Assembly: GCA_029237695.1 (NCBI GenBank)
Contig: CM055275.1
Span: 8,506,899-8,570,898, forward strand
Direction: 5' to 3'
DNA: 64,000 nucleotides
Source: Conchocele bisecta
Lineage: Eukaryota; Mollusca; Bivalvia; Lucinida; Thyasiridae
Of the stretch, positions 50,901 to 56,900 are shown piece after piece. Every line of letters starts with the position of its first letter. Position 1 is the first letter of the stretch. Under the pieces are notes generated by a model. That model was not told where the DNA came from, ran no database searches, and worked only from the letters and a program-made list of their open reading frames with translations. Both the position numbers and the translations under genes were made by a program.

Positions 50901-53900
50901 CCCCTGGACCTCTACATGCCACGCCCGCACAGGTTGGTATCACTCGCCGATAAACTATTTATTTAGTTATTTTCCCTTCTAAATATCTCAGTGCTCCAGA
51001 TAAGCTTTGTGCCTAATTTCAAAATTATTGTGTGCAGTCAAACCTGTGCTAACGACCATCTGGGAATAGTGTCCACTCCATTTAACGGTAATTCCCGATA
51101 TGTATTTTGTGTCGTGTATTCCAATAGGCATAATGCAATTCCGCGTAAGTCATAAAACTCCATCATTAGCTGGCAAACTGTGTTTACACAATTCTGATTC
51201 GTCTACGGTGACAAGACTAAGTCCTCAAACACACCGCGCTTGTCAAGTGTAAATTTCACACCGTGGGGCACAAGGCCATATCAAAGATCAATACACGCTG
51301 TTGCTGACGTCAGTCACGTAGTCCACACTAGACTGGTACCCTGTCGGATGCGCAGCCTATTCCATTAGCGGCCAGACCAGGCAGTGGATTCGCGTAGTCT
51401 GCCCATGGTTTACAATGCTCGCCAATCTCTAATTAAAAACATCAGTAATTACGTCAGCGGACATTGCCAATTCGTCATAGGCTGCTGAAATATTCGGCTT
51501 GACCAGGATAGTATACATTGGACAGAAAGCAAATAAGTCTGGTGTTCTCTGCCGATTTTGACACCTATCTTGCGTGGATTACTCGACTTGACACATTCAA
51601 TGAAATATTTTTGTTACAAAGAAAACTCGCGATTTTCACAGGCCGCGCCACATAGGCTATCGTTTTAATAAAGACTATATGACCGTTATTAATTTCAATT
51701 GATGGTGTGAAATTGAGAATAAGAAAACAAAATACTAATGGTCATGCTAATTACATGTAATTACGACAAGCTATTAAATGGTGCACCAAAGCAAGCCGCG
51801 GGATATACTTATCATGAAGATAATTACTCCCCTTTGTATATCATTTCCAAAGCGAGGCTGGGTTCAGAACAATAACAACAAGTTGACATAACAAAATAAA
51901 TTACTATTTTTGCCATTTTCATGCAATTTTTTTTAATTGATAAAAAGCAGATACACTCCACGATCGTGCAATAGCGAATCGTCAGGTGGAAGTGTATACA
52001 GCCAAGACGTTTTCTATGCATGCATTTAGATTGTAATTTACAATAGAATGCTAAATACATGGCCGACTTTGTTGTGAAACCGGGAAAATGTTTGACCCTT
52101 GGAACAACGACCATCTGTCAACAACGGCCACTTTGGCCACTTCCCTTTGCCGGTCGTTGTTCACAGGTTCGACTGTATTTTACTTTTACAAATGGGTTAA
52201 CTTATTGATTTTCTTTATTACTAAATAGGGAACAAATGATAAAAAATATAACAAATTTAAACATTCACTTATTTCAGCTGCAAAAAAGCTGTTTGCTTTT
52301 GCAGCTCAACTAAGTGAATTTGCAACTTTATGACAGTATTTTCCACTACTCAATTTGAAAATCAATGCGTATTTTCACATTGCTGTGCATATTTTGTACT
52401 CCCACTGTTGATAATCAATGCGTATTCAGCTAAAATATTTGCGTTAAATACGCCATTTCGCACCTTAACTGGAGCTCTGAGCTTTGTGTCTAAAGGAATA
52501 TTATACCCTGTGACTTCAAATTCAATGTATATTTTGGTTTGGCAAAGGGATTACTGATTTTTCCCTTGTCAATGAATGATAAAAAAGTGAAATAAAGTTA
52601 AAAATTCACTGATTTTAGTTGCAAAAAGCAAATATTAAAAGTGAATTTTCAACTGTATTAGCCTTTTCGCTGCTCAGTTTGAAAATCAATGAGTATTTTC
52701 AAATGTTGTGAGTATTTTGTACTCCCACATTTGAAACGATACATATTCAACTAAATAGTGTGTAAAATAGACCAATATGCACCTTACCTGGAGCTCTGTC
52801 CAGTAGCCTATTTCATCAACATTGCAAAGTATACTTTACTAGCAAAGTATACTTTGAGGGAGAAATTTTCAATTTTATGATAAATTTATTAATTTTTATG
52901 CTACTGAGTTTATTACATTATCACAGCCAATTTGGCTGTGATAATGTAATAAATTCAGTATAATAATTCTGCATACTTTTAATCATGAAATATATGCATT
53001 TGCTAGTTCTATATGAAATAATGCATTTCAGGAAAAATAAATGACCTTGATCTGACCTTGATCGGGGTCACTAATGTTCACCTTGTCTAGACAAGAGCCG
53101 TCGGCTGACAATAAAGTGCTTTGTTTTCAGCAGACAGCTCTTGTGCAAATTATAACATGACTGTTCCTTTCTATATTTAGGCCCATGCCTCCCAAGTTCA
53201 AGGTCAACCGTTTCAGAGGTTAAAGGTCAAGGACTTGTTATCAAATCTTGAATTACTGTGCCTTGTCTTTTGGCAACTCTTTCTTATCCAAACTCAATTT
53301 TCTATTAAATAATAACACAACTGATCTATATTTAGGCCCATGCATCCCAAGTTCAAGGTCAACAGTTTCAGAGGTTAAAGGTCGAGGACTCACTTGTTAT
53401 CCAAACTCAATTTTCTGTTAAATGATAACACAACTGATCTATATTTAGGCCCATGCATCACAAGTTCAAGGTCAACAGTTTCAGAGGTTGAAGGTCCCAT
53501 GCATCACAAGTTCAAGGTCAACAGTTTCAGAGGTTGAAGGTCGAGGACTTCACTTGTTATCAAATCTTGAATTACTGTGCCTTGTCTTTCGGCAACTTTT
53601 GTTATCCAAACTCAATTTTCTGTTAAATGATAACACAACTGTTCTATATCTAGGCACATGCATCCCAAGTTCAAGGTCAACAGTTTCAGAGGTTAAAGGT
53701 CGAGGACTTCACTTGTTATCTTTTGTTATCCAAACTCAATTTTCTGTTAAATGATAACACAACTGTTCTATATCTAGGCACATGCTGCCCAAGTTCAACA
53801 GCAGCAGTTTCAGAGGTTAAAGGTCGAGGGCTTGATATAATCTTGTATTCTGTGCCTTGTCTTTCGACACCTCCATGTTGTCCAAACTATTTTATGTTCA

Positions 53901-56900
53901 ATGGTAACAGCACTCAGTTCTACATTTAGGCGCATGCTGCCTTGACAGGGTAGTCCACGCTCAGAAGGCTCAGGTCAAGGTTCAAGGTCAACAGCAGCAG
54001 TTTCAGAGGTTAAAGGTCGAGGACGCGCTATCGTACCTGGACCAGGTGAAGCTACAGTTTGGGAACCAGCCTCAAGTCTATAACGACTTCCTCGATATTA
54101 TGAAGGAGTTCAAATCTCAAACGTGAGTAGATCAGGCCGTCCTTAAAAAATTGTTTGACCCAGAATTTTAGAAGTGGGTCGGTCGGTAGGCAATTTCTTT
54201 TTTTTTCTTGTTATGACAAAATTATTAATATTAAAAAGGTACAATATTTTAACACTTGCATTGCAAGTGTTAAAATATTGTACCTTTTTAATATTGATAA
54301 TTTTTAAATTCAATATTGCAAGTCTTGCAATAAAAGTATGTCAATTGCTGTATGTGTTGTTGTATGAACATGTATGCCATTTAGGGCCAGAGATTATATT
54401 AACCCTTTTAACCCACTGTAACACTAAATTGAAAAAAATTAAAAAAAAAAAAGATTGTAAAAAATAAAATAAAAAAAATAAAAAAATTGTAAACGAAATT
54501 GCAATAAAAAAAAAATTCGGGTCGCATCGTTTTTAGTGGGTCGGTCGGGTTACAGGAAACGGAGATATAATTATGGATGGCCTCCATGTCCAGTGCACCG
54601 GAAGCTGATTTCACTAAAATTGCGAAGTATGCGTATCTTGCTAAGTACACTTTGAGGGAGAAACTTTCTATGCTATATATCCAGCTGTTCTATGAATTAC
54701 GACAAAATGACGTAAAATTTGTATTTGGTTATTTACGTTTTTTAAACAATCCGAAAATGCAATGTAAATATAAGTAATAAAACCATGGGCAGTTGTGTTT
54801 ATCTCTTAAATGTAGTATGAAAAACATAAATTTTGTCTGTGTTCGAGGAGTCCTCCACGTTAATCTGACCAAATGTTTTTCATACTACAATAAACGTAAC
54901 AGCCCATTGTTTTATTCCTTAAAGTATGTGACTTATCTCGAGATATGGAACTGTATTATATTTTATAATTTCAGCATCGACACGCCCGGCGTGATCAACC
55001 GGGTATCGAACCTGTTCAAGGGTCACCCCGATCTCATCGTCGGCTTCAACACGTTCCTACCCCCAGGCTACAAGATCGAGGTGCAGGCGAACGAGATAAA
55101 CGTGCACCAGCCAGGCCAACAGACCGTGTCCATATCGACACTGAATCAAATGGCACAGGCTGCCGCAGCGTCGAATCAGCAACACGTTAGTCGTGACATA
55201 TTTTTTTTTTTTTTTTTTTTGCTTTAAAGAAAAAATAATTCAGAAAAATAAATGTCTTTCAGAAATCAACACCGCCCCACGTGCCCACCACATTGTCTGA
55301 TATTCTTACCAGAGCTCCAGATAAGCTGCGTATTTGCGTAAATACCCAATTAAAATTGCCAAAAACCCAATTGAAATCAGAAGTAGTGAGTATCAAAAAG
55401 CAATAAAAAATTGTGGTACTTTTATCATGCTGCAGAAAACAATAAACCGACCTCAAACATAGCATGTTTTTCTTATTTTTCCGTGAAACCAAATCTTGGT
55501 ATTTCATTAGAATTGTTTTCAAGGAGACAATTCTAATGAAATGCAAGGACATGTTTTCATTTTAGAAGCAAACTATTAAATAATTGCTTTTCTGCTGATA
55601 TGTAAACAGCAGTGTGATTTTATTTTACCGAATTAAAATTTTGAAATACCCAATTCTTTCAGAAATGATGGAGTGACAATACTCAATTACTAATTCCTTA
55701 TCTGTAGCCAATTTTATCAAAATTGCAAAGTACTCTTTTCTAACAAAGTATACTTTGAGGGAGTAATCATTTACTTTTCCCAAAATGCATTATTTCATAC
55801 GAGCTAACTACTGCATATATTTGATGATTAAAAGTATGCAGAATTATTATACTGAATTTATTACATTATCACAGCCAAATGGCTGTGATAATGTAATAAA
55901 TTCAGTATAATAAAAATTAATAAATTTATCATAAAATTGAAAATTTTTCCCTCAAAGTATACTTTACTAGAAAATTATACTTTGCAATGTTGATGAAATA
56001 GGCTACTGGAGACGGCTTACAATAGACCCCAATCCTGGTGTTGTAGAGGGTTTGGGTGTATCTTCTTATATTATAGAAACCAACCAACATGTTCCCTCCA
56101 CCCCCGCCCGCAATCTCCCATTCAACACAGGATGTCTCGTGTATATTCTCCGCCAAACTGCCAAAATTTTACAGGACATTTCGTCTGGTAAACTTGAAAT
56201 TTACCAGAACAAAAAAATGATATAAAAAAAAAGAAATAGAAAAGATCTTAGAATAGAAAAGTAAAACAAAAAATAAAAAAATATTTTATATTTTTTATAG
56301 TCTGACATTTGGGCCGACAATTTTCGCTGAGACTGCTTACAACTCAACTACCGGTGCTCGTCTACGACTCCGTGTATTTTCTCTAATATTCTTACAGAAG
56401 CCCACACCGCCCCACGTGCCCGCCACCCCCACCCACAACTCACAGCCGACGCAGCACACATACCACCAGCCGAGTCGCCCGACTCCCCCGGAGCCCACGC
56501 CCCCACCACCTGGTCAGCACGGCACCGGTCAGCCGCAGGGTCAGCAGCCCGGTCAGCAGCCAGTCGAGTTCAACCACGCGATAAACTACGTGAACAAAAT
56601 AAAGGTGGGAAGTTCAGAGCTCCAGATATCATAGATTATTTTATTTGTATGTGGATATGCACGAGTTCTGCAGTGTACGATATTGCGCGACTTTAGGAGC
56701 GCAAGATCGCTGTGTGGCAGAACGAGAGGCATATATCCACATACAAATCAAATAACCGTTTTATTATATACATACATCATTCGCAATCTATATGCGCTTC
56801 AAAAATATACAAAATATAAATAAAATAAACAAATTAGTGGTGATTTAGAAGGAACTATTTTGCCAAGTGAAGCGTAGTTCCGGCACTGACCTCAGGAGAC

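Follow-up and report, generated by a model that had tools for sequence, protein, structure and literature searches.

Does a run of splice acceptors, each followed by the beginning of an exon, disturb the gene that carries it, or is it a harmless product of local duplication? The question is raised by intron 2 of the SIN3 gene in the bivalve Conchocele bisecta, which lies in a 64,000-nucleotide window of assembly GCA_029237695.1 (contig CM055275.1, positions 8,506,899 to 8,570,898 of the forward strand); coordinates are counted from the first letter of this window unless prefixed C11. The 3' end of the intron is a tandem array on the + strand, consisting of five acceptor-bearing units and one head-only copy followed by exon 3. 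We consider it likely that this is a mirage, the name given in amphioxus to tandem repeats across intron-exon boundaries (PMC3087553): a boundary-spanning, minisatellite-like tandem duplication that grew locally and most likely has no role, ahead of an exon 3 that is probably entered at 53965 or 53974.

Anatomy and uniqueness of the array

Each unit spans the 3' end of intron 2 together with about 54 of the first coding bases of exon 3, with the intron-exon boundary lying inside the repeat unit, and the SIN3 array has in this respect the anatomical features of a mirage. The motif CTA[TC]AT[TC]TAG ends every unit tail and the tail before exon 3 (Table 1); its AG is kept in all five acceptor-bearing units and is lacking in the head-only copy, and the five unit acceptors each lead into a phase-0 exon head of the form AHA[SA]QVQ...FQRLKV. 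An initial annotation, made from the letters alone, had counted six degenerate units, five with an acceptor, and this is borne out by the motif ends and by a perfect 46-bp internal duplication at 53450-53542 (100%), which adds a head from 53498 without an acceptor. The junction positions it gave (53181, 53336, 53449, 53654, 53778 and 53930) agree exactly with the motif ends, and the phase 0 that it read after the acceptors matches the end of exon 2, exons 1 and 2 sharing one continuous frame that ends in phase 0. In Tandem Repeats Finder the array shows periods of 113, 124 and 159 with a tandem score of 629, beyond chance, and this repeat anatomy supports the proposed serial duplication of a module of acceptor and exon head.

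The body of exon 3 encodes the SIN3 PAH1 domain and matches PDB 2rmr (E 1.9e-20) from QRLKVED onward. The copies had been identified as the beginning of the PAH1 exon, which this match upholds; since it starts at QRLKVED, each head contributes only its last seven residues to that chain. The intron tails of units 4 and 5 are identical (53/53 columns) and that of unit 1 differs at 18/53. Unit 5, with its head from 53778, had been called the most exon-like: it does keep CAGCAGCAG, but the GGTCAA before it is missing.

Table 1. Features of the 3' end of SIN3 intron 2 and of the flanking exons
Feature	Coordinates	Strand	Basis or score
SIN3 exon 2, HATPAQ at its end, ending in phase 0	50809..50932	+	donor score 10.6
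Unit 1: diverged intron tail, acceptor ending at 53180, head	53123..53234	+	71% to reference copy
Unit 2: intron tail, acceptor ending at 53335, head	53235..53389	+	92% to reference copy
Unit 3: short intron tail, acceptor ending at 53448, head	53390..53497	+	89% to reference copy
Head-only copy, perfect 46-bp internal duplication without acceptor	53498..53548	+	46-bp period, 100%
Unit 4: intron tail, acceptor ending at 53653, head	53549..53707	+	repeat comparison, acceptor motif
Unit 5: intron tail, acceptor ending at 53777, head	53708..53831	+	94% to reference copy
Last intron tail, homologous to those of the units, with the ancestral acceptor CTACATTTAG of exon 3 (end at 53929)	53832..53929	+	acceptor score 2.2
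Altered head of exon 3: 12 unit-like nt, then ~41 extra nt	53930..53982	+	AHAALTG*, stop at 53951-53953
Exon 3 body, PAH1, ending ...KSQ, followed by donor GTGAGT	53983..54122	+	frame, PDB 2rmr match, donor score
Candidate in-frame entry to exon 3: 53965 CAG|AAG, 53974 CAG|GTC	53965..53982	+	inferred; frame and scores 3.8, 2.7

The whole assembly (1,891,530,640 bases, 1196 contigs) was searched, and all match counts are lower bounds. A 25-mer from the head, with three mismatches or fewer allowed, occurs six times on the + strand and not at all on the - strand of these 1.89 Gb, all six occurrences lying in the array and exon 3, and its reversed-pattern control has no match in the assembly. The DNA of the array matches its own locus and the adjoining exon alone, in a search that did not take the intron tail by itself; an ordinary satellite, which the initial annotation had named among the findings that would overturn its reading, or a dispersed element is not supported by these lower-bound counts. 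The PAH1 exon has a single genome match at E 0.001.

Relatives of the encoded protein were taken as the best 120 of 374, of 2697 and of 1773 matches (360 proteins in all). It is 77-82% identical to five bivalve-like SIN3 proteins, including those of Dreissena, Mercenaria and Mya, and the lowest E-value among the matches listed of one search belongs to a pseudoscorpion SIN3A (P0121) covering 46% of the query. One record (P0196), whose name is that of an E2 ubiquitin-conjugating enzyme of Dreissena polymorpha, contains a PAH1 segment of SIN3 in the midst of its sequence and is either a genuine chimera or a fused gene model. In the Conchocele genome the enzyme portion has its match on C3, the SIN3 portion on C11.

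Further repeats were seen around the array. At its upstream edge (53042-53063 and 53087-53145) there are two TGACCTTGATC copies and then a stretch CAAGAGC...GCTCTTG that adjoins unit 1, possibly the remnant of a mobile element. Long, hairpin-like inverted repeats resembling miniature inverted-repeat transposable elements lie at 52904-52960 in intron 2 and at 54220-54300 in intron 3, and at 14197-16360 of the window a 55-bp unit is tandemly repeated about 40 times.

The out-of-frame head of exon 3

The exon at 53930 had been taken as intact, and this did not hold: read in phase 0 from there, it meets a stop after seven residues. Compared with the units, exon 3 has ~41 extra nt after its first 12 nt, and 53930 is out of frame because these separate AHAA from the rest of the head. 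The ancestral acceptor is thus unusable in frame, as would be expected if the intron had slid. Among the matches listed, 13 of the 360 proteins fit [AV]H[ATV]AQVQGQ+FQRLKVED, those of Dreissena polymorpha, Mercenaria mercenaria and Mya arenaria included, and HAALTG occurs in none of the 360. The heads of the units nearly match the head of the relatives Mercenaria, Mya and Dreissena, which is free of the extra stretch, and within the 103-kb SIN3 region that stretch has no other match longer than 12 nt.

How, then, is exon 3 entered? An alternative exon 2 donor at 50937, which would place 53930 in frame, was rejected (score -3.8, 24th percentile). The in-frame acceptors score 4.4 (53911), 3.8 (53965), 2.7 (53974) and 4.7 (54007), values that do not decide between them; use of 54007 would remove VQGQQQQFQ from the exon. 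From the reading frame, exon 3 is probably entered at another, in-frame AG (53965, 53974 or 53911), or the sequence has an error. The second of these possibilities, in which the array is real, the frame break is a sequencing error or a rare allele, and entry is still at 53930 with a longer in-frame head, we regard as unlikely, though it deserves to be taken seriously. No stop interrupts the PAH1 frame between 53908 and 54123, so that one small insertion or deletion near 53930-53950 would make 53930 usable, and one related protein (P0002) has a similar longer head. However, no other frame break was seen in ~3.6 kb of aligned SIN3 coding sequence, and such an error is unlikely beforehand for that reason.

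The out-of-frame head was unexpected, and it makes the locus a candidate for an ongoing splice-site shift. Tentatively, and with somewhat less than even confidence, we suggest that the start of exon 3 may be changing, the out-of-frame old head being replaced by a new internal acceptor or by a recruited mirage unit at a shared AG|GT. If this is true, SIN3, a conserved gene with one genome match, would show at exon 3 a stage still under way between the duplication of a boundary and the shift of an intron or the origin of a new one.

Duplicated boundaries across SIN3 and the role of the unit acceptors

The array had been presented as a feature of the PAH1 exon, but duplications of this kind are not peculiar to PAH1: SIN3 carries several of them, and short local repeats are abundant in this genome. 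Six of 44 splice boundaries were found within local direct repeats, namely the heads of exons 3, 10, 13 and 17 and the tails of exons 18 and 19. The denominator is the 46 ends of the 23 exons found (possibly there are more) minus the two outermost, where exon 1 begins and exon 23 ends; the count is approximate, with the start of exon 3 entered as 53980, within the repeat, and the head of exon 23 (45% covered) standing outside the six.

The largest case is exon 17, preceded by ten tandem copies of acceptor and head, 94-113 bp each (C11:8589131-8590277, outside the window). Each copy has an AG with (ATCA)n ahead of it, and one is frame-shifted; the pattern used to list the copies requires an AG, and they were counted by eye in the sequence too. 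Every acceptor AG there is followed directly by GTG, giving a weak donor-like AG|GT; its score is 3.5-4.1 at the nine sites listed, one of which belongs to the exon itself. The head of exon 10 has one copy in which CAGG is changed to CAAG (C11 ~8577839-8578248), and that of exon 13 has two copies with CAG (C11 ~8580260-8581650), these too lying in neighbouring introns. The tails of exon 18 (C11 ~8595097-8595325) and exon 19 (C11 ~8596542-8596894) each have one copy with a GT donor in the neighbouring intron. These copies of exon pieces in SIN3 were detected with the Mercenaria protein.

Local repeats cover 19% of the 103-kb SIN3 region; in 20 other 10-kb blocks, with repeats defined in the same way, coverage averages 23% (median 15%, range 1-91%). 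By these values boundary duplications show no enrichment over background: with 6/44 against such coverage, boundaries have been struck no more often than other places.

Splice-site strength was scored with matrices built from 21 acceptors and 22 donors of SIN3 alone, their boundaries set from protein alignment. The highest score of any GT in the units is 3.3, against at least 6.5 in 21 of 22 real SIN3 donors scored leave-one-out (the remaining one scores 2.2), in agreement with the earlier statement that the copies have no evident donor; the donor of exon 2 is the only good one for the acceptors of the array. The unit acceptors, not scored leave-one-out, reach 1.9-4.5, which places them at the 77th-91st percentile among the AGs of the region. 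True SIN3 acceptors span -2.2 to 11.0, and the acceptor matrix therefore discriminates poorly. Set against the 2.2 of the ancestral acceptor, the unit scores make some use of the units possible.

These values bear on the proposal that the unit acceptors are decoys, slowing or misrouting SIN3 splicing and so lowering or regulating its output. All five retain YAG and phase 0, their scores overlap those of the ancestral acceptor and of its in-frame replacements, and splicing to them would lead into a stop codon or leave a stretch unspliced. To this extent the units could act as decoys, but such a role is unsupported and we think it improbable: the units have no good donor, other SIN3 boundaries are duplicated likewise at the background rate, and the heads show no constraint among units 2-5, where 9/48 head columns and 5/53 tail columns vary (p 0.25; p 0.08 with unit 1 added). 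Constraint on the unit heads is not established, the heads of units 2-5 being no less variable than their tails. In addition, amphioxus mirages are reported to be harmless to splicing (PMC3087553, PMC3902484).

In a third reading, which follows the model of figure 7 of PMC3087553, one of the units would serve as a small exon and be spliced to exon 3 where the two share AG|GT, and this would restore the ancestral head. Joining CAAG|GT of unit 4 to 53987 is in frame, as is joining CAGAG|GT to 54009, and relatives have the ancestral head without the extra stretch. In-frame joins are expected from homology alone, however, the two donors score 2.6 and 3.3 (below 21/22 real ones) and the acceptor at 53987 scores -2.8, and we regard recruitment as very improbable. 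Least credible of all is a cluster of transcription-factor sites formed by TTCAAGGTCA, which we take to be an ERR / NR5A nuclear-receptor half-site and which occurs six times on the + strand and never on the - strand within 47000-97000, all six in the array and exon (53197-53981), since it belongs to the coding sequence of the head (VQGQ) and was copied along with it, and unit 5 is without it.

Growth of the array and comparison with known mirages

We therefore return to the mirage. Several observations weigh against it or parts of it. When unit 1 and exon 3 are both added to the comparison, 24/53 tail columns and 11/48 head columns are variable (p 0.02), and this excess in the tails could reflect constraint on the heads, although exon 3 is itself coding. 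UBE2O was the second gene compared, and among its nine matched stretches, from three pieces, no end lies fully in a local repeat (one head is 20% covered and every other end 0%), so that the SIN3 rate may not be typical. The head of P0002 resembles an in-frame reading of the extra stretch in exon 3, part of which may thus be old head sequence rather than an insertion, and the in-frame AG at 53911 scores slightly above that at 53965 (4.4 vs 3.8).

With these points taken into account, the array is most likely a neutral product of local duplication. The repeat anatomy, the identical tails of units 4 and 5 and the perfect 46-bp duplication in unit 3 show growth by local tandem duplication, probably with later turnover, in an order of events that we infer. 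Exon definition would bypass acceptors that lack a good downstream donor. The last copy would remain an exon because it alone is followed by such a donor, the upstream acceptors being skipped. The ~41 nt in the head of exon 3 put the ancestral acceptor out of frame, and entry is probably at the in-frame AG at 53965 or 53974.

The SIN3 arrays offer a natural test of correct splice-site choice. Exon 17, with ten upstream copies of acceptor and head and a good donor after the last only, is such a test of exon definition, and exon 3 is a test of whether boundary-spanning arrays lead to splice-site shift. With SIN3, boundary-spanning minisatellites, which we found described in amphioxus, are extended to a bivalve, in which a single conserved gene has them at several boundaries; we make no claim to a first report.

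The closest counterpart is the BflGb6 mirage of amphioxus, which has been described as a unit of 150-160 bp made of an intron 3' end and the 5' part of an exon with its AG, present in six and three units in two haplotypes at 81-100% identity (PMC3087553). The SIN3 unit has the same composition, with periods of 113-159 bp, and as in the amphioxus mirages its boundary-spanning copies are several and of unequal age. According to the same source, the BflGb9 mirage spans a 3' exon boundary, reverse transcription polymerase chain reaction suggested undisturbed splicing, and unit recruitment was proposed as a route to new introns (PMC3087553); Adh3, TnC and PGBD5 are given as further amphioxus cases in PMC3902484. 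The SIN3 array differs from these in its host, a bivalve and not a lancelet, in that several boundaries of one gene bear repeats, and in that the old acceptor no longer leads in frame into the authentic head of exon 3. Intron sliding and gain through tandem duplication have been described in Drosophila (PMC2891723), and intron gain by partial tandem exon duplication is also the topic of PMC4974935 and PMC3443670. The SIN3 locus shares with such cases duplicated coding sequence with AG|GT sites and a possible short shift of a splice site, and it differs in showing no new intron position and in that the acceptor shift of exon 3 is read from the frame.

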